64,000 nucleotides of DNA from Paenibacillus donghaensis. Lineage in GTDB: Bacteria > Bacillota > Bacilli > Paenibacillales > Paenibacillaceae. Each line of letters opens with the position of its first letter. Within the stretch, counting starts at the first letter, position 1. Below the pieces are notes generated by a model. That model did not search any database and was not told where the DNA came from. It was given only the letters and a program-made list of their open reading frames with translations. The stretch spans positions 6,076,001 to 6,140,000 of the forward strand of contig NZ_CP021780.1 of NCBI RefSeq assembly GCF_002192415.1, in the 5' to 3' direction. Below, in pieces: positions 26,005 through 64,000 of this stretch. A program made the position numbers and the translations under genes.

Positions 26005-26149
26005 TACATCGGTTTAATCATCATAATTTATAGCTCATACTAACATTCAACGTCTAGCAGTCCGTTTCATAAGTTCCTTCTCCGTTTCCCCAGTTTCCAA
26101 GACCAAAGCTTATGGACGAAGGGTCAAGATGCTCACCCGGAGAGATATT

Positions 26150-26327
26150 CCTGCAAAAATACAGGAATTTCCTCTTCTCTTCTCCTTGTTCGCTGAATTC
26201 TTGTAAAAGTGCAGGTTTTCCGGCAGTTGGTTCATCGAAACAGCGCTGGAGGTGTAAATTCCTGCACTTTTGCAGGCTTTCGGTCCCGAAGACCGTTTTC
26301 GCACGAAAAAAACGGTATGATTGCAGG
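26150..26327. repeat. Four-element array, CTGCA family, copy A
   Basis: Four 16-bp elements start at 26150 (CCTGCAAAAATACAGG), 26200 (CTTGTAAAAGTGCAGG), 26261 (CCTGCACTTTTGCAGG) and 26312 (ACGGTATGATTGCAGG, left half degenerate). Start-to-start distances are 50, 61 and 51. In the first two the A-rich centre follows the left arm; in the last two the orientation is inverted. The array lies in the 626-bp gap between the divergent ArsB-type and LLM genes. An open frame at 26054-26461 across it is not credible. Confidence 0.85.
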
Positions 26328-26550
26328 CATTTTGGGCAGTAGGTGACTATATATGGCCCGCTGAGCTTGAAGCTAGCGGCCCTGCGCTGCTTCAGTGGTC
26401 GTCCTTCCTCATTGCGGGTTCCAAACGTTACACTACACCCTGCTTTACAGATCAGGGGCATGCCCGGGTAAGGACTTCTGAAACGCTGTACTAGTAGCTT
26501 CTAAGAATTCCTACGCAGTCCTTACGCTTACTTTAAGTAAGAGATTGTGG

Positions 26551-47629: not shown

Positions 47630-47680
47630 CAGCTAATTTCTCCACTCCCGCTTGGACGTATATCTTACTAAGCTCGTATT

Positions 47681-47858
47681 CCTGCAAATATACAGGTTTT
47701 CGCCGGATTCGAAGCTATTGGCTTCAACTACCTGCAAATGTGCAGTTTTTTAGCGCTAATCTTACTCTGCAATGGCTTTGCCGCATAAATACCTGCACAT
47801 TTGCAGGTTTAGCCCTCCTGAGCCGCCAATTCAGGCAAAAAACCTGCACATTTGCAGG
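47681..47858. repeat. Four-element array, CTGCA family, copy B
   Basis: Elements start at 47681 (CCTGCAAATATACAGG), 47731 (CCTGCAAATGTGCAGT), 47792 and 47843 (both CCTGCACATTTGCAGG). Distances are 50, 61 and 51. The first two have the AAAT centre after the left arm; the last two are inverted. Spacers of 34, 45 and 35 bp are unrelated to those of copies A and C. The gap 47354-48085 holds a terminator, the MITE-like copy, this array and the lacZ terminator, and no gene. Confidence 0.9.
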
Positions 47859-47973
47859 TTTGCTATAATACTAAGGCCCTATGTCGCTGTGCGGCACCAC
47901 AGAGGAAGGAAATATTGCGTTATTTCAACGCAGCCGAGCAGAATGTAGAGGTTCCATGCGCCGTTAGCCAACG

Positions 47974-53078: not shown

Positions 53079-53265
53079 TTATAGGAAATTTCTATCGTTA
53101 ATCTTCACAACCTCAGCATCCAACAAAGGTTATAGGGAAAAAAGATCGTTAAAACCTCCGCTAAACAGCTTTTTAGAGCAAATGTGTGAGATTAACGGTC
53201 ACCATTCCCTATAACATGCAACAATCACGGTGCACGGCAACATTAGTGTTCAAAACTCCCTATAG
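53079..53265. repeat. Four-element array, TATAGGG/GTTAA family
   Basis: Four 23-bp elements: 53079-53101 and 53130-53152 run from TTATAGG to CGTTAA; 53192-53214 and 53243-53265 are inverted (TTAACGG or TTAGTG to CCCTATAA or CCCTATAG). Start-to-start distances are 51, 62 and 51. The elements are not palindromes. The 852-bp gap 52949-53800 contains this array and a second one at 53537-53711 and no gene. Confidence 0.8.
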
Positions 53266-53344
53266 TTCGTTGTGGCGGGCTTCCGCACATAGCGCAACAC
53301 CTCTATAAGTTACATCAGAACTCAGCTATCTTACTCACCAGCTA

Positions 53345-53548
53345 AGCTGCAAACCCGGTTACTACTTAGTAGGCCTCCGTAGGATAAGAGCATCAAAGAC
53401 TTAGCTCCATGCCCGTCTCAGTAGTCGAATTCACAGATATAGTTGCGAAACGGATTGCTGCATAGGACTCCATAAGATAGGAGCATCCAAGATGTGATTT
53501 CTTGAGCACCAGCTTAGTCCAGCCAGCAATTTAAGTGCGAAAACGCAC
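53345..53548. repeat. 96-bp-period degenerate repeat leading into the GTGCGAA array
   Basis: AGCTGCAAACCCGG (53345), AGTTGCGAAACGG (53441) and AGTGCGAAAACGC (53536) recur at intervals of about 96 bp, with GAGCATC at 53388 and 53481. A related GAGCATC plus AGTTGCGAA pair occurs at 56903 and 56955. Confidence 0.55.
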
Positions 53549-53711
53549 CTAATTCACCGATTTTTTCTGTTTTGGAGCAAATAAGTGCGAATACGCATCT
53601 AATCTCGAGTTTTGAGCGTTAAACAAACGTTTTCCTCGAAAATAGTTGCAGATTCGCACCTATTTGCCCATAACATGAGTTTCAGCTGAAATTAGATGCA
53701 CTTTCGCATCT
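53537..53711. repeat. Four-element array, GTGCGAA family
   Basis: Sixteen-base palindrome-like elements start at 53537 (GTGCGAAAACGCACCT), 53585 (GTGCGAATACGCATCT), 53646 (TTGCAGATTCGCACCT) and 53696 (ATGCACTTTCGCATCT). Distances are 48, 61 and 50. The conserved arm GTGCGAA is on the left in the first two and, inverted (TTCGCA), on the right in the last two. Confidence 0.85.
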
Positions 53712-53800
53712 AATTTCTCTGAAAGCTCTTTGGGGAGCATTCTAAATCCTCGTGAGACCTAATGAGAGCTAAGTAGTAACTAAACCCGGCGCTATTGTAC

Positions 53801-54535
53801 TCATGTATTATCATCGTCGTCCGCTTCCCAGGATACGGACATGATTGCGCCGGAGGTCGCATTCACCTGGACCACAGCCTCCCGGCCGTCGGTGGCATTC
53901 ACCTCGATCAGATAAAAAGGACCTGAGCGGTCCCGGCCGGTATCGACATCATCGCTCTCCCCCGGGACCTCCCGCAGAGCAAGCCTAACTGCTTCGGCTT
54001 CCGTAATGACCCGCCGGGCAGTCGGGTCCGGCGAGGAGGTTGCTGCCGGAGCCGGAGAGGCGGACCGGCCGGGCAAGGCCGAAGCCTGCCCCGGATTCCC
54101 GCCGCCCGCAGGCGTGGGCTTCGGTCCGGCGGTTGCGGACGCTGCCGGGGTGCCCTCCGGCCCGCCGGAAGGCGTCGCCCCGGGCGGCCCGGACGCACCG
54201 GGCACAGCGGTCCCCGGCTCGGCGGACCCGGCCGGCTGCGCCGGGGAACTCCCGTCCGGCAGCTCCAGCCGGACGATCGACTCCACCTCGCCTGAAGCAG
54301 CATCCAGCTGCAGCTCGTAGAGTCCCTGGTCCGTCCTCAGCCGGGCCAGGTAACCGCGCTCCCGCAGGTGCAGGCTCAGCACCTCGCCGGGATACTGCCT
54401 GAGCAGCACCTGCGAAGCTTCCGCAGCGCTTAGCTGCTGCGCGGACGCTCCGTCCCGCTGCTTCAGCAGCAGTCCGCTTACCAGCAGCACCAGCAGTACA
54501 ACAGCAGCCGAAATATACATAGCCTTCTTCTTCAT
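53801..54535 (-). CDS. Membrane-anchored PepSY-domain protein with Pro/Gly/Ala-rich linker
   Basis: A 244-residue protein with one N-terminal span (AMYISAAVVLLVLLVSGLLL). A PepSY-like segment follows at about 35-95 (SAAEASQVLLRQYPGEVLSLHLRERGYLARLRTDQGLYELQLDAASGEV), then a low-complexity Pro/Gly/Ala/Ser linker of about 75 residues, and a second PepSY unit at the end (VITEAEAVRLALREVPGESDDVDTG, VQVNATSGAIMSVSWE). The linker DNA is GC-rich, which explains several long antisense open frames that are not genes. It is the third gene of the regulator-kinase-PepSY operon, 46 bp after the kinase, and probably tunes the kinase or responds to it. Confidence 0.85.
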   Translation of the reverse strand: MKKKAMYISAAVVLLVLLVSGLLLKQRDGASAQQLSAAEASQVLLRQYPGEVLSLHLRERGYLARLRTDQGLYELQLDAASGEVESIVRLELPDGSSPAQPAGSAEPGTAVPGASGPPGATPSGGPEGTPAASATAGPKPTPAGGGNPGQASALPGRSASPAPAATSSPDPTARRVITEAEAVRLALREVPGESDDVDTGRDRSGPFYLIEVNATDGREAVVQVNATSGAIMSVSWEADDDDNT

Positions 54536-54581
54536 GCTGCCTCACCACTATCTGCCACCGTAATGTCCCTTCCGCTGTTCC

Positions 54582-55955
54582 TCATAGTGCTCCCCCGCTC
54601 TCTGCTGCCGCAATCCTGATCTTCACCGTTGTACCCAGCCCTTCCACGCTGTCCAGCTCCAGCTGTGCGCCGATGGCTTCGGCAATCTCCGCTGCCAGCG
54701 ACAGGCCGAGTCCGGCACCGCCCTGCTTGCGCCCACGGGCTTCATCGACCCGGTAGAAGCGATCAAAAACCTTCGGCAGCTCCGCCTTCGGAATACCGAT
54801 GCCCCGGTCCGCGATCGTAATCACGCATTCCGGGCCTGCGCTTGCCAGCGTAAGCGAAATCTCCCCATCACTGTACTTGCGTGCATTGTCCAGAAAGATG
54901 AACAGCAGCTGCTTCAGCTTGGCCTCGTCGCTGTAGCCATGTGCCACCCCGCCGGGGCTGACGCTGACGGCGACTTCCCGGCCATACGCATACCGGAAGG
55001 CCCGGGCAGAGCCTTCAGCCAGCTCCTCCAGATCAACCGCAGCCAGCGACAGATTCCAGTGGTCCTTGTGCCGGGCGAGCAGCAGCAGCTGCTCGGTCAG
55101 CTCCTTCATGCGGATGGCTTCCGAATGGATCGCTTCCACCGATTCCTCGAACAGCTCCGGATGCTCCAGACCCCGCCGCTTCAGCAGGCTGGCATAGCTC
55201 TCAATTACCGTCAGCGGAGTTCGAAGCTCGTGCGAAGCATCGGACACGAACTTCTCCTGCTTCAGATAATTGCTCTCCAGCAGAGCGATCATCTCATTGA
55301 AGGTCTGGCCCATCTCGACTAGCTCATCGCGGGACTTGTCATCCAGCTCCAGTCTGGTGAATCTGCCGCTTCGTTTGATCCCTTGCATCGTCTGTGTCAT
55401 CTGCACAATCGGCTTCATAATAATTCCGGCCAGCAGGCGGCTGGACAGCACCAGGGGCAGCAACGCCACAAGCGTAGCCACAGCCAGCACCACCCGCAGC
55501 ACGTTCAAAGTGCCGACGGTATGCTCCAGGCTTTTGGTCAGCTGGACATTCCTGACGCTGCCGTCTGCCCAGATCACCGGAGTAGACACCGAAGCATAGG
55601 TGCGGCCCCCCTCATGAAGAATACTGCTGCGGACATGTACGTCATATACCGCCGGCAAGCGGCTGATCGCCTGCTCCGAAGCCGAGGTAACCGGGGCCGG
55701 GCCGCTCCCATCCTCGGACAGCAGCCGGATCATGCCATCCGCCGGAACATAGGCCCGCAGCAGGTCGGCCACATCCGCAGCAGCCGCCGCACTGTGCATA
55801 CCGGCGGCAATCTGGCTGCCCTCCGCTTCAGCCTGCTCCAGCTGACTGTTCATCGAGAGCCGGCTGAACATGAAGTAAATCGCCAGATTCATCAGCACAA
55901 GCAGCACGGCGAACAGCACACTGGAGTACAGATGGATTCGGGTACGCAGCTTCAT
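54582..55955 (-). CDS. Sensor histidine kinase of an OmpR-type two-component system
   Basis: A 457-residue kinase with spans at about residues 10-32 and 150-175 around an extracellular sensor, a HAMP region (IMKPIVQMTQTMQGIKRSGRF), and a phosphoacceptor His242 in SDASHELRTPLTVIESY. N-box IFLDNARKYSDGEI and G-boxes IADRGIGIPKAEL and GGAGLGLSLA are intact. The start overlaps the regulator stop by 4 bp. Together with the PepSY protein it resembles PepSY-linked sensor systems of Gram-positives that respond to envelope or antibiotic stress. The signal is unknown. Confidence 0.94.
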   Translation of the reverse strand: MKLRTRIHLYSSVLFAVLLVLMNLAIYFMFSRLSMNSQLEQAEAEGSQIAAGMHSAAAAADVADLLRAYVPADGMIRLLSEDGSGPAPVTSASEQAISRLPAVYDVHVRSSILHEGGRTYASVSTPVIWADGSVRNVQLTKSLEHTVGTLNVLRVVLAVATLVALLPLVLSSRLLAGIIMKPIVQMTQTMQGIKRSGRFTRLELDDKSRDELVEMGQTFNEMIALLESNYLKQEKFVSDASHELRTPLTVIESYASLLKRRGLEHPELFEESVEAIHSEAIRMKELTEQLLLLARHKDHWNLSLAAVDLEELAEGSARAFRYAYGREVAVSVSPGGVAHGYSDEAKLKQLLFIFLDNARKYSDGEISLTLASAGPECVITIADRGIGIPKAELPKVFDRFYRVDEARGRKQGGAGLGLSLAAEIAEAIGAQLELDSVEGLGTTVKIRIAAAESGGAL

Positions 55956-56656
55956 GGAGCATCCTTCAGGACATACCCGATCCCCCGGACGGTATGAATC
56001 AGCTCCGGCTGCTCACCCTGGTTGATCTTTTTGCGGACATAACGGATATAGACATCCACCACATTGGTTTCGCCCACATAATCATAGCCCCAGACCGCCG
56101 CCATAATCTGGTCCCGGCTCAGCACCTGGCGCTGATTCCGCAGCAGATAGACCAGCAGATCGAACTCCCGTGGGGTCAGCTCTATGTTCGTGCCACCCCT
56201 CACCACCTCGCGGGTGGATTCGTTTAAGCTCAGATTGTCCGCCATCAGCAGCCCCTGCGCCCCGGGCTCCGCTCGCTGCGCAGCTGACGCCGTCGTCAGC
56301 CGCAGTGCGCTGCGGATACGGGCCAGCAGTTCTTCGATCTGAAACGGCTTCGTAATATAATCATTGGCTCCCAGATCAAGCCCGGACACCTTGTCCTCTA
56401 CGGAATCCTTGGCCGTCAGTAGCAGGACAGCGACTCTCGAATCATGCTGGCGCACCCGTCGCAGCAGCTCAATGCCACTGATCCCGGGCAGCATCACGTC
56501 CAGCAGCAGCAGATCCACCCCGCCGCCCTGAAACAGCTCCAGCGCTTGCAAACCGTTGCCCGCCTTCAGCACACGGTAGCCCTCGCATTCCAGCTCGATC
56601 TGCAGCAGACGGGCGATTTTCTCTTCATCCTCAACAACCAGAATCGTCTCCGGCAC
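55952..56656 (-). CDS. OmpR/PhoB family response regulator
   Basis: A 234-residue regulator. The receiver domain has Asp53 in LLLLDVMLPG and Lys in YITKPF. The C-terminal winged helix (LTPREFDLLVYLLRNQRQVLSRDQIMAAVWGYDYVGETNVVDVYIRYVRKKI) is complete. It overlaps its kinase by 4 bp. The 812-bp upstream gap to hflC holds a repeat array and no gene. Confidence 0.95.
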   Translation of the reverse strand: MPETILVVEDEEKIARLLQIELECEGYRVLKAGNGLQALELFQGGGVDLLLLDVMLPGISGIELLRRVRQHDSRVAVLLLTAKDSVEDKVSGLDLGANDYITKPFQIEELLARIRSALRLTTASAAQRAEPGAQGLLMADNLSLNESTREVVRGGTNIELTPREFDLLVYLLRNQRQVLSRDQIMAAVWGYDYVGETNVVDVYIRYVRKKINQGEQPELIHTVRGIGYVLKDAP

Positions 56657-56966
56657 ATCGGTTCCTCCTTCTGTACAGCAGAAGTTTTAGCCTGGTTAAA
56701 CTAAGCTTTCAACCATAGTACCATAAAGTACAGGACAGCAAGAACAGCCGCCGGTTCAGGCCACCTGACTACTTCAACTCGCTTGCAAGCCGCGAGAAGC
56801 AGCGCTGGTCCACAGGATATAGTCTATGTTTCGATATGCTGCTGCTTCATACTAAGATTGATCGGCCATAACTTTCCTCAACCCAGGGGTCCCCATAGGC
56901 TGGAGCATCAAAGACTACGCGGCTGATCGCCATATCAGTCCAATCCACCGAATTAGTTGCGAATCT

Positions 56967-57266
56967 GGTTACTACTTAGATTCCCTAGCCCTCTTCGCTC
57001 GTAACCCTCGCTTCGATTTCAGACGGTTGCGGACTCAGGAGCCTCTATTTGCTGTACATAGGCCGTTTTGCTGGATTAACGGACCCAGGAGCCTCTATAC
57101 CATAGAACAACCTTGGGTTAGGTCTTGTTTTGACGGCTTAGGGGCTATACGGTCCGTAAGACGTCAAAAGATCGCAGATAGGAGGAAATAGGGGCTATAC
57201 GGTCCGCTAGAATGCAGGTTACCTAGTTCAAGGGCTTGGAGTCTCGCGGGGTCCTAAGTAGTAACC
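56967..57266. repeat. Module bounded by inverted GGTTACTACTTAG
   Basis: GGTTACTACTTAG (56967-56979) and its exact complement CTAAGTAGTAACC (57254-57266) enclose 300 bp with the CGGAC array centred almost exactly in the middle. The same 13-mer starts at 53357 and, inverted, CTAAGTAGTAAC recurs at 53769 and 57321, flanking the GTGCGAA array and this region. Confidence 0.75.
57030..57206. repeat. Four-element array, CGGAC/GCCTCTA family
   Basis: Elements of 18 bp: 57030 CGGACTCAGGAGCCTCTA, 57080 CGGACCCAGGAGCCTCTA, 57139 and 57189 TAGGGGCTATACGGTCCG (inverted orientation). Distances are 50, 59 and 50. The elements are not strong palindromes; the inverted pair differs in the middle. The gap 56657-57468 contains no gene. 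Confidence 0.8.
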
Positions 57267-57404
57267 GAATCTGCATCTAATTTCTCTGAAAGCTCTAATG
57301 TAGCCTTCTACATCCTCGTTGGAACCTAAGTAGTAACGAATACCACTACTATAATTGGAACCTCTTCCAATATGAGTCCAATCACGATCACTATCTTAAA
57401 ACAC

Positions 57405-61200: not shown

Positions 61201-61280
61201 GCTTACTGTTAGTTTCTTATGGACAGCGTAGGGGTGCTCTTATGCAACTTTACAGATTCGGAGATCAGTCCGAGTGAATA

Positions 61281-61458
61281 CCTGCAAATCTGCAGGAATT
61301 ATCTGCAGATCTCCTCACCCAGCACCAAAACCTGCAAATGTACAGGAATTTTGCTTAAGAACCGACCTCTGAAGCCAATCTTGCTCAAAAAACTGCAGAT
61401 TTGCAGGTTTTTGCCTCTTCGAGGTCAATAACGGTCTGAAAACCTGCAGATTTGCAGG
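61281..61458. repeat. Four-element array, CTGCA family, copy C
   Basis: Elements start at 61281 (CCTGCAAATCTGCAGG), 61331 (CCTGCAAATGTACAGG), 61392 (ACTGCAGATTTGCAGG) and 61443 (CCTGCAGATTTGCAGG). Distances are 50, 61 and 51, identical to copies A and B. The first two and last two are in opposite orientation. Spacers do not resemble those of the other copies. Confidence 0.9.
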
Positions 61459-61469
61459 CTTTCGCTCGG

Positions 61470-61880
61470 GTAGCGGCGGTATTGGCGGTATCGCTGGTAT
61501 TGGTGGTATTGGTGGTATTGGTAATATCTGTTGCAGCGATATCGGTGGTATCAGTAGTATTGGCGGTATCGGTAGTATTGGTGGTATTGGTAGTATCTGT
61601 AGTGTGGTGGTATCTGTTGCAGCGATATCGGTGGTATCAGTAGTATTGGCGGTATCGGTAGTATTGGTGGTATTGGTAGTATCTGTAGTGTGGTGGTATC
61701 TGTTGCAGCGGTATCGGTGGTATCAGTAGTATTGGCGGTATCGGTAGTATTGGTGGTATTGGTAGTATCTGTAGTGTGGTGGTATCTGTTGCAGCGGTAT
61801 CGGTGGTATCAGTAGTATTGGCGGCATTGGCGGTATTGGTAGTATCTGTTGTAGCGATATCAGTAGTATCAGCGGACTGC
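61470..61880. repeat. GGTATT-rich satellite with 86-bp higher-order repeat
   Basis: A stretch of GGTATT/GGTATC hexamers is organised in 86-bp units, shown by TTGCAGCG at 61531, 61617, 61703 and 61789; the last unit is shortened (TTGTAGCG at 61849). As 86 is not a multiple of three, the open frames across it are not conserved coding frames. It ends at the stop of the hydrolase gene. Confidence 0.9.
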
Positions 61881-61895
61881 GGTAACTGAGTCTGT

Positions 61896-62964
61896 TCAGC
61901 GGCCTTTGAGGTTCTGCTCAAGAACATCCAGCAGCATGCCGTTTATACGCTCATGAATCCTGCCGGTCTGCTCGCTTAGCGGCTGGTCCGCTTCGAACAG
62001 CGGCAGATCACTAAAGGACATATGACTGGCTTCCTTCACCTCTATCAGTGATGCCTTGCCCTGCAGTCTGCGAACCAGTATTTCTTCAGTTTCTATGTAT
62101 TTGGACACTACCTCTTCACCAAAAAGTTCCTTGAATCTGGCGAAATGAACTGCATCCCGCTGCAGTACAAGCACGGAGGGCGTATGTTTCCACTCGGTCT
62201 CCCCCGCTCTGAACAAATCCATACTCGGATCAAGCAGAACAGCGGCCGTCGTGCCGCCTAGTGAATGACCAATGAGCGCGATCCGCTCCAGATCCAGTAC
62301 GCCTTGCAGCATACCGGATTCTGCATTCAACTTGACCATGGCGTTCAGCAGCCACTTCAAATCCTCGATTCGGAGATCTATTAGTTTACCCAGCGCCGGA
62401 TAATTGTTCTCCACCTCCCGCATCTGTTCAGACTGGTGCAGGAATTCACCAGTTGGCAGCACTGTAAACATGGCTTCATAAGGCGCGCTGACCGTAATCA
62501 CGGCAAAACCATCGTTAACCAACGCCGCGATAGCATACATATACATGTCCCGATCCAAGCCTAACGCAGGTGTAAGTATCACGACAGGATGCGAAGCTTC
62601 TGCTGAAGCATTCTGTTGGATAGGTGTATAGAACGTGAACTTAAGAAGGTTACATACGGAGTTGCCAGGAAGCCCTATGGTTCAGGCTTTCTGGCAACTC
62701 CACTACTCCATTCTTAAGTTCATCTTATATAGTCAAGTCTTCCAGCAGCTCCAGGTTCATTCCAATATCCTTAAGCAAGCCCACCGCCTGTTCCAGGCAG
62801 GGCTCAAATAACGCTGTATACTTCAGCCCAGGCCCCTGCTCAGGCATCCAGTCAGCCCCAGGAGTATATAGACTGACTATTATCCTTCTCTTCCTCTCTT
62901 CATGCTCAGACGTTTCCTGTCGGTTATCATCTGTAAATATCTGCACCCTCCGGCAGATCTGCAT
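61896..62964 (-). pseudogene. PAF-acetylhydrolase-like alpha/beta hydrolase interrupted by a small element
   Basis: Two frames make one protein of about 320 residues. The N-terminal part starts at ATG 62964 (GGAGCGATCCCC upstream) with RRIIVSLYTPGADWMPEQ and ends at LLEDLTI-stop at the element boundary. The remainder reads HPVVILTPALGLDRDMYMYAIAAL and LERIALIGHSLGGTTAAVLL, with the nucleophile elbow GHSLGG. This resembles the platelet-activating-factor acetylhydrolase family. The 106-bp palindromic element at 62627-62732 lies between them. Removing 103 or 106 bp rejoins the frames exactly. A possible internal start could still make the C-terminal 228 residues, but without the N-terminal part it is probably inactive. 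Confidence 0.82.
62627..62732. mobile_element. MITE-like palindromic element, copy 2, inside a hydrolase gene
   Basis: About 106 bp, roughly 93 percent identical to 47524-47629. Ends TATAGAACGTGAACTTAAGAA and TTCTTAAGTTCATCTTATATAG are inverted, with an inner stem GGAGTTGCCAGGAAGCC / GGCTTTCTGGCAACTCC. TA at both junctions could be a target duplication, as in Tc1/mariner-IS630-type MITEs. No transposase gene is in the window. Confidence 0.85.
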
Positions 62965-63011: not shown

Positions 63012-63803
63012 TTATATTTTGAAAAAAGCCTTGGCCGTTTCTGTCGTCCGCTCCATCACTTCATCCGCAGCAAGACCCATACATTCGGCGATCACCTGCG
63101 CAATATGCGGCAGGAACGCAGGTTCATTGCGGCCGTCTTTTGGCTTCGGCCGCAGATCACGCGGCGTCAGGAACGGCGCGTCGGTTTCGATCATCATCCG
63201 CTCCAGCGGGATGTGGCGAACCACCTCGCGCAGCGGCCCGCCGCGGCGCTCATCGCAGATCCAGCCGGTGATGCCGATGTGCAGCCCCAGCTCCAGGTAG
63301 CTGTGCAGCTCGGCTTCACTGCCGGTGAAGCAGTGCACTACCGCCGGCAGCGCCTCCGGCCTCCCTTCGCGCAGCATCCGCGCGAAGTCCTCGTGCGCGT
63401 CGCGCTCGTGCAGGAACAGCGGGAGCCGCAGCTGCGCAGCCAGCTCCAGCTGCCGCCCGAACCAGTCGCGCTGCAGCTCGCGCGGCGAGAAATCGCGATT
63501 GTAGTCGAGTCCGCACTCGCCAATCGCCACTACCTCCTCCCGCGCTGCCAGGCGGCGCAGCGCGGGCAAGGTCCGCGCATCACAGCTCTTCACATCATGC
63601 GGGTGTACACCCGCAGTGGCGTAGAGTCTGCGCGGATACTGCGCCGCATACTTCGCAGCGGCTTCGCTGCTTCTGATGCTTGTGCCCGTAAGGATTAGCG
63701 GCGATACGCCCGCGTCGGCCGCCGCCTGCACAACCCGCTCACGGTCTTCGCCGAAGGAGCGGTGCATCAGATTGACACCGATGTCAATCGTCTGTTTCTT
63801 CAT
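63012..63803 (-). CDS. tatD: TatD family metal-dependent deoxyribonuclease
   Basis: A 263-residue TIM-barrel hydrolase starting at ATG 63803 with GGAGGACAG upstream; the longer frame from 63896 only reads through the tandem repeat. The opening DIGVNLMHRSF matches E. coli TatD itself, in which the usual HxH pair is absent. Later metal and catalytic residues are present: VVAIGECGLDYNRDF, FLHERDAHEDF, AVVHCFTGS and MIETDAPFL. Relatives are 3-prime to 5-prime DNases or D-aminoacyl-tRNA deacylases. Confidence 0.94.
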   Translation of the reverse strand: MKKQTIDIGVNLMHRSFGEDRERVVQAAADAGVSPLILTGTSIRSSEAAAKYAAQYPRRLYATAGVHPHDVKSCDARTLPALRRLAAREEVVAIGECGLDYNRDFSPRELQRDWFGRQLELAAQLRLPLFLHERDAHEDFARMLREGRPEALPAVVHCFTGSEAELHSYLELGLHIGITGWICDERRGGPLREVVRHIPLERMMIETDAPFLTPRDLRPKPKDGRNEPAFLPHIAQVIAECMGLAADEVMERTTETAKAFFKI

Positions 63804-63828
63804 GTTCTGTCCTCCTGTCGATCCTTCA

Positions 63829-64000
63829 TACGAAATCTTCGCATTCATATCCCGAAGTCCTTCCCGCAGTCCTTCATACGAAATCTTCGCATTCATATCC
63901 CGAAGTCCTTCCCGCAGTCCTTCATACGAAATCTTGCATTCATATCCCGAAGTCCTTCCCGCAGTCCTTCATACAAAATCTTCGCATTCATATCCCGAAG
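63829..64000. repeat. 48-bp tandem repeat reaching the window end
   Basis: A 48-bp unit (beginning CCTTCATACGAAATCTTCGC, then CATTCATATCCCGAAG and TCCTTCCCGCAG) recurs about 3.6 times and runs off the right edge. It lies directly upstream of tatD. One copy has a single-base deletion (AAATCTTGCATT), which breaks the frame, so the unit is not a maintained coding repeat. Confidence 0.88.

Follow-up and report, generated by a model that had tools for sequence, protein, structure and literature searches.

The closest described relatives of the elements treated here are the repetitive extragenic palindromic (REP) sequences and the bacterial interspersed mosaic elements (BIME). In the parts of three papers that we drew on (PMC1525189, PMC2817692, PMC3733652), these are short imperfect palindromes that lie between genes in high copy, fall into several families per genome, form composite regular arrangements and serve as insertion targets of mobile elements. 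We describe repeats of a comparable kind from a 64,000-nucleotide stretch of the Paenibacillus donghaensis genome (contig NZ_CP021780.1, positions 6,076,001 to 6,140,000; the window in what follows), where four copies of a short motif, two in one orientation followed by two in the other (++--), make up what we call a quartet. Judged against those excerpts, the quartets are similar in being high-copy short intergenic repeats with several families, a regular arrangement and a mobile element that targets them. They differ in having four ++-- sites with a spacing that is kept across families, and in that two of the families are not palindromic. We lean, if only just, towards reading a quartet as four dimer sites of a putative protein in one two-fold symmetric complex, an interpretation drawn from the sequences.

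The window holds six ++-- quartets, the three arrays that a sequence-only reading of the stretch had pointed out and three more of the CTGCA type. In one register, with 22-nt windows, the elements of all six start 50-51/57/50-51 bp apart; the start distance of 57 from element 2 to element 3 equals about 61 bp centre to centre, and the spacings between element centres are about 50.5/61/50.5 bp. The quartets of family F1 (CCTGCA-N4-TGCAGG type) lie at 26149..26328, subfamily aligned, with elements starting at 26149(+), 26199(+), 26256(-) and 26307(-), at 47680..47859 (47680(+), 47730(+), 47787(-), 47838(-)) and at 61280..61459 (61280(+), 61330(+), 61387(-), 61438(-)). The arrays noticed earlier are all present, and their coordinates differ because of other registers. 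The F4 quartet (TAGGGA...ACCGTTAAT, not palindromic) is at 53082..53262, previously 53079-53265, with elements at 53082(+), 53133(+), 53190(-) and 53241(-) and start spacings of 51/57/51. The F2 quartet (AGNTGC-N6-GCANCTAATT, palindromic) is at 53533..53711, previously 53537-53711, with elements at 53533(+), 53583(+), 53640(-) and 53690(-), and the F3 quartet (CGGAC...GCC.CTATTT, not palindromic) at 57029..57207, previously 57030-57206, with elements at 57029(+), 57079(+), 57136(-) and 57186(-); both are spaced 50/57/50. In element orientation, the centres of this F3 quartet are CAGG in the first doublet and GTAT in the second. F1 and F2 are palindromic and F3 and F4 are not, just as had been claimed. 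The order +,+,-,-, proposed at the same time for every array, can be read directly in F3 and F4, and in the palindromic families it rests on small asymmetries, because palindromic elements also score in other orientations (59 hits for ++--, 50 for +--+ and 46 for +-+-). Two tandem repeats were seen as well, one with an 86-bp period at 61530-61900, adjoining the F1 quartet at 61280, and one of 48 bp (TTCATATCCCGAAGTCC...) at the end of the window, 63700-64000.

A motif-free scan was run on 404 kb of this genome, consisting of the window, which was the choice of the sequence-only reading, and 17 stretches not picked by motif, one of which (L041) was taken after its F1 site was known. The scan looked for four similar 22-mers in ++-- order with spacings of 30-90/30-110/30-90, and was followed by a tandem-repeat filter. 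It left 37 quartets, 23 with both outer spacings at 49-52 bp and 14 scattered elsewhere. The middle spacing of the 23 ranged from 49 to 67, with 21 at 55-63, a spread that arises because the best-scoring register varies. Ten dinucleotide shuffles of the same 404 kb gave no quartet in this geometry and five at any spacing, and the corresponding figures for two 50-kb stretches of E. coli K-12 were zero and two. Without the filter there were 24 matches, one of them (L035, 7050) a tandem-repeat artefact, as compared to one for a shifted control geometry; the window accounted for six of the 24 and the remaining 340 kb for 18. Extrapolated to the whole genome of 8.54 Mb, this would give some 400-500 quartets. 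The sequence-only reading had proposed such a scan, and had named a lack of enrichment and an origin in ordinary tandem duplications as the outcomes that would speak against it; enrichment was found and neither outcome occurred for F1-F5. We regard the quartet architecture as established.

In F1 the spacing varies by about 1 bp, and the other families come close to this. A set of 570 F1-like elements from 2.2 Mb, where orthologous and some identical stretches are counted repeatedly, contains 754 pairs up to 400 bp apart. There were 221 pairs at 49-52 bp (218 at 50 and 51 bp), a peak that is partly selected since 80 loci of the set were chosen with a doublet spacing of 48-51 bp. Nine further pairs, at 48 bp, include tandem repeats of Methylobacter. 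No pair was found at 52-59 bp. The further peaks, at 61, 111 and 162 bp, are free of spacing selection, with 95 pairs at 60-62 bp (93 at 61-62), 197 at 109-114 bp (194 at 111-113) and 109 at 158-165 bp (106 at 161-164). The F1 element centres are 50-51, 61-62 and 50-51 bp apart. In this genome the F1 doublet pattern matched 105 times forward and 103 times reverse, and never when the pattern was read backwards. Some F1 loci are more complex than a single quartet. At L020 (9699-10850) four F1 quartets stand in tandem, about 325 bp apart, flanked by genes resembling tig and the pst operon (names from reading of open reading frames, ORFs). In the extended F1 array at L021 (2440-3960) a true tandem repeat of 50 bp provides up to five direct copies; two inverted copies follow, and much of the block is itself repeated. 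The ends of contig G000:C1 (L028, L029) hold the same quartets with small differences, and are probably an untrimmed circular overlap.

The claim that unrelated motifs have one geometry in common was borne out with other motifs and in other genomes. In the sampled parts of this genome we distinguished 83 quartets, 37 of F1, 21 of F2, 13 of F3, 8 of F4 and 4 of F5, sorted by the best match to five consensus strings, so that some are misfiled or artefacts, e.g., the AGGCCTC case at L017. Six other Paenibacillales genomes (400 kb) gave nine ++-- matches, of which seven had both outer spacings at 48-53 bp and new motifs; at these outer spacings the counts per orientation were 7 for ++--, 4 for +--+, 3 for +-+- and 5 for ++++. 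Still more motifs, at 50-53 bp, came from 20 further stretches picked for F1 matches. When 191 quartets were clustered, 19 clusters resulted; in the largest, chaining has joined F1, F2 and F5, and 13 hold a single quartet, at least two of which look like artefacts. For this reason we give the number of families loosely, and put at about a dozen or more those that have this geometry in common within Paenibacillales.

F1 doublets occur in 78 of 296 genomes and in 27 of 48 genera of the order, with 0 to 205 forward matches per genome (some low counts, as in G004, are tandem-repeat artefacts), and their distribution is patchy among species of one genus. In the genus g4, eight of the sampled species have five or more F1 doublets (G119, G091 and G238 among them) and nine have none (G048, G095 and G131 among them). 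In a named collection, among the matches listed for 80 of 99 loci, 74 of 112 ++-- matches had both outer spacings at 48-53 bp; these quartets were mostly from Paenibacillus, Fontibacillus, Cohnella and unclassified Paenibacillaceae, and nine loci outside Paenibacillales, from Methylobacter and Lachnospiraceae among others, had no quartet of this geometry. One F2 quartet used as query had no match in plasmids, and one F1 quartet none in phages. The loci L118-L133 (G114, G192) are close copies of one F1 subfamily with conserved flanks, several of them directly 3' of the apparent T-run of an intrinsic terminator. In Methylobacter (L213, L226), CTGCA-N4-TGCAGG is part of a 48-bp direct tandem repeat that is unrelated to quartets.

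By inspection, each element is a pair of short half-sites that flank a centre of about 4-7 bp, most of it free. F1 and F2 have inverted arms of about 10-11 bp around 6 bp, and across the families the centre is, again by inspection, of even length in some and of odd length in others (F5, F6, F7, F10 and F12). For each of the eight F1 quartets in the G122 stretches that were compared, G214 has a counterpart in the same position, and in this one species pair and one family the substitutions were counted. The 5-bp arms had 7/320 (2.2%), the 6-bp centre 18/191 (9.4%), the tails 20/191, the spacers 83/741 (11.2%) and the flanks 87/836; Fisher's test gave P = 1.3e-7 for arms against spacers, 8e-7 against flanks and 4e-4 against the centre. 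Arms that are conserved, letters of centre and spacer that drift, and spacer lengths that are kept are together the signature of dimer sites in a rigid complex, and the double-stranded half-sites look selected.

Elements within one quartet are more alike than the family average. In F1 the partners of a doublet are most alike (z 7.4 for elements 1-2 and 8.3 for 3-4, as compared to 4.9-5.4 for the other pairs), and in F2 all six z values are 4.0-4.8. Among 80 distinct F1 quartets the type of the right arm agrees within doublets in 108 of 160 cases and across the middle in 30, 18, 32 and 17 of 80, and the most frequent patterns are aabb (14) and bbaa (11). The spacers of F1-F5 are not duplicated in either orientation, apart from weak signals in the direct orientation, with z 2.6 for F3 (n=6) and z 1.8 for F2 (n=11), and an inverted duplication as the origin of the quartet was rejected, the spacers being unrelated. 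F7 in G122 and F11 in G126 look by inspection like the tandem duplication of a doublet about 112 bp long, which counts against the sequence-only reading.

A family of miniature inverted-repeat transposable elements (MITEs) in this genome, with ends GGTTACTACTTAGG and 6-bp target duplications, involves the same sites. In a list limited to at most one mismatch there are 17 candidate pairs, 14 of them with identical 6-bp duplications; in other pairs, among them L027 10416, L049 1301 and L049 18486, the duplications are not identical. Ten of the 14 with exact duplications carry an F2, F3 or F4 quartet. In the window, a 425-bp MITE at 53357..53781 (ends GGTTACTACTTAG.../...CTAAGTAGTAACT), exactly duplicating AAACCC at 53351-53356 and 53782-53787, carries the F2 quartet, and a 300-bp MITE at 56967..57266 with the same kind of ends, exactly duplicating GAATCT at 56961-56966 and 57267-57272, carries the F3 quartet. 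The latter splits an F2-type element into a left half at 56951..56966 (AATTAGTTGC-GAATCT) and a right half at 57267..57282 (GAATCT-GCATCTAATT). In 31 of 60 MITE ends TGC is found exactly six bases outside the tip, as compared to 0 or 1 at the other offsets between 3 and 13, and an arm of the F2 or F1 type can be seen at 26 of these 31 ends; about half of the MITE ends thus sit in the exact 6-bp centre of quartet elements. Insertion sequence (IS) elements targeting REP palindromes, as described in the part of PMC1525189 that we used, are a precedent for this. The exact end sequence occurs 89 + 90 times in this genome and once in 99 other species of the genus, and the MITE is therefore a recent guest, which, we infer, acquired quartets because it lands among them. 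No autonomous relative with GGTTACTACTTAGG ends was found among the loci of DDE_Tnp_1 (30 of 31 matches), the family that was searched. At L332 (828-2661; G000:C1 near 4458528) a 1,545-bp IS with a 405-aa DDE_Tnp_1 transposase and several nearly identical copies in this genome lies inside an F4-type MITE; it is a separate IS inserted there, and was rejected as the autonomous partner.

Quartets favour convergent gaps. Among 61 classified, 25 were in convergent, 27 in codirectional and 9 in divergent gaps, whereas the full set of gaps that are 250 bp or longer divides into 33, 72 and 28; the classes come from crude ORF calls on 74 quartets, of which six were inside ORFs and seven had no neighbour. 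At one convergent intergenic site G118 has no quartet, G122 has an F1 quartet, and G126, which is close to G118, has a quartet of another family. The F7 locus, compared between G122 and G214, was not a clean insertion, and among species near G000 no usable empty site was found, the places tried being too diverged or rearranged. Three single F1-like sites near regulator genes were looked at and showed no pattern.

On the reading that we narrowly prefer, each of the four sites would be bound by a dimer of a putative sequence-specific protein, the dimers would come together as a single complex of two-fold symmetry, which would wrap or loop about 160 bp of DNA, and the different motif families would be served by paralogous or diverged proteins. 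The copies are scattered in intergenic DNA like REP/BIME repeats and are gained and lost between species, and in this genome the MITE prefers the centres of such sites and carries quartets about. The two step lengths are about 10.5 bp, or about one helical turn, apart, so that the rotational offset is equal for all steps; the steps correspond to 5, 6 and 5 turns at about 10.15 bp per turn, and all four sites would face one side. This match of helical phase is arithmetic and no evidence of wrapping. The sequence-only reading had suggested DNA-binding proteins of diverged specificity with one assembly; the conserved half-sites, the free centre and the spacing kept to about 1 bp support this indirectly, and the protein itself was not found. 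More tentatively, and with rather less confidence, the quartets may belong to a nucleoprotein system of the Paenibacillales, in which many paralogous proteins, each with its own half-sites, build one four-site two-fold complex on about 160 bp at hundreds of intergenic places, the recognition diversifying with the assembly frozen, and a transposon targeting the centres.

Several observations weigh against a four-site complex of a host protein. The patchy distribution within one genus accords with a selfish repeat no less than with a function for the host, and the conservation of the arms could in part come from gene conversion among copies. The substitution counts are from eight ortholog pairs, several with indels and one with a duplicated element, and when whole 18-bp elements were counted, in an alignment that was less strict, the substitutions came to 37/575 (elements), 99/867 (spacers) and 234/1585 (flanks). 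Furthermore, no linked gene was seen; the neighbours look ordinary, as judged mainly by ORF reading and in a few cases by Pfam. YheC/D ATP-grasp paralogs beside quartets in G039 and G220, the only clustered match and in low-copy genomes, were rejected since they look like ordinary shared synteny.

The alternative that survives best, although we consider it rather unlikely, is that a quartet is a minimal non-autonomous transposon with two transposase-binding sites per end, the right end inverted and the transposase elsewhere or lost. The ++-- order is that of transposon ends with outer and inner sites, and the two doublets differ as left and right ends would, in the right-arm types of F1 and the central bases of F3. 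The patchy distribution and the presence or absence of quartets at the orthologous site of G118, G122 and G126 also fit. Short direct repeats were found beside the ends in 33/178 quartets as compared to 14-20/178 at six control offsets, and this modest excess keeps the transposon alive, but the repeats have no common length or sequence, and part of the excess (L178, L202, L204, L207, L210) belongs to a flank that related Fontibacillus copies have in common by conservation. In 3/80 F1 quartets there are exact 6-mers at offset 3/3, against a mean of 0.03; however, terminal repeats paired with duplications are weak and unshared in F1, and absent in F5. All families keep an inner distance of about 61 bp, where independent internal deletions should make it vary, and the eight of eight shared positions in G122 and G214 speak against a transposon as well.

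It is improbable that a tyrosine recombinase uses the elements as core sites, with accessory sites at a distance of 50 bp, as in Xer/dif-like or recombinase-trio elements. Such core sites (dif, Tn916, ends of recombinase-in-trio elements) have inverted arms about a short centre, as far as the part of PMC3414803 that we used goes. The arms of F1 and F2, with a mobile element also sitting in the centre, resemble this, and eight F1-rich genomes have somewhat more integrase matches (8-29) than ten genomes without F1 (4-21). The constant overlap of 6-8 bp would fit the 6 bp of F1 and F2, but the centre is of odd length in five other families. Fifty loci, 30 with an integrase (out of many more matches) and 20 with a Y1 transposase, gave one F5 quartet, at an integrase (L302), and one F1-like doublet, at 51 bp, beside the Y1 transposase gene of L283 (G072). 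Moreover, 14 of the 17 MITE candidates in the list limited to one mismatch have two identical copies of the duplication, as a DDE transposase would leave them.

Still less probable is that the quartets act as RNA, as terminators or processed hairpins. F1 elements do look like bidirectional terminators, few quartets are in divergent gaps (9/61), and some arm pairs match above independence, in F2 4/13 (0.80 as compared to 0.54 expected) and 5/12 (0.84, 0.56) and in F1 3/14 (0.90, 0.77). This excess of near-invariant pairs may come from members that were misfiled or shifted. The variable pairs stay close to independence (F2 2/15, 0.25 as compared to 0.23 expected; F1 5/12, 0.46 to 0.39), and the types of mismatch point to different strands at different positions (C.A at F1 5/12, 0.34; G.T at F2 6/11, 0.34; C.A at F2 1/16, 0.30). 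Since F3 and F4 are not palindromic and the variable arm bases of F1 and F2 hardly covary, hairpins are not the common factor, which upholds the earlier view. The likeness within the pairs 1-4 and 2-3 is no greater than within 1-3 and 2-4, which lends no support to a nested hairpin, and in the window no Rfam family was found at the gathering score, which removes a known structured RNA family there. Least probable of all is a functionless origin, where duplication and gene conversion spread the elements and the spacing is inherited by descent: tandem duplications at the F7, F10 and F11 loci (by inspection) and the five 50-bp direct copies at L021, about 2470 to 2700, point that way, but unrelated motifs with unrelated spacers share the spacing, and the arms are conserved over the spacers.

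That a dozen or more unrelated motifs, in several genera, keep their spacing to about 1 bp is strong as a physical signature of one complex. If the four-site complex is correct, the quartets would define a large, apparently unnoticed class of bacterial intergenic DNA. They would be ready bait for the putative protein family, and a natural experiment in which DNA specificity changes as the assembly stays fixed. The MITE, which inserts exactly at the centre, probes these sites a second time and independently.

Among known systems, REP sequences with their REP-associated tyrosine transposase (RAYT) do not account for the quartets. The Y1 transposase PF01797 is present in five of ten F1-rich genomes (G000, G236, G119, G102, G072) and absent from the other five (G122, G214, G219, G003, G146), and it is also present in two of ten genomes without an F1 match, so it was rejected as the partner. 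The base-paired stem-loop of a REP does not fit either, with F3 and F4 not palindromic and the variable pairs near independence, though some near-invariant ones are above it, and no GTAG or CGTC tag was seen by inspection of the consensus elements, on which no formal scan was made. Going by their repeats, the quartets are not CRISPR (clustered regularly interspaced short palindromic repeats) arrays, as two of the four copies are inverted and the copies differ. From core sites of tyrosine recombinases the quartets seem to differ in that the parity of the centre length varies, and no linked recombinase gene was found in the loci examined, apart from the integrase of L302 near one F5 quartet. We found no description of such quartets in the PubMed Central literature searched, which leaves out most subscription papers.

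Like MITEs, the quartets are short, non-coding, intergenic and of high copy; no convincing terminal repeats were found at the F1 and F5 ends that were compared, and no convincing target duplications of their own beyond the modest excess of short direct repeats in 178 quartets. The GGTTACTACTTAGG elements have both, and are MITEs. Multi-site operators, iterons and centromere arrays hold several helically phased dimer sites for one protein assembly, and are usually single loci with one motif beside their gene. The quartets, in contrast, occupy many loci with many motifs in one geometry, and no linked gene was found. By analogy, a quartet may work like a multi-dimer operator or a centromere array that is dispersed and comes in many motifs. 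We place the quartets among the dispersed intergenic repeats, and it is possible that they represent a categorically new system.

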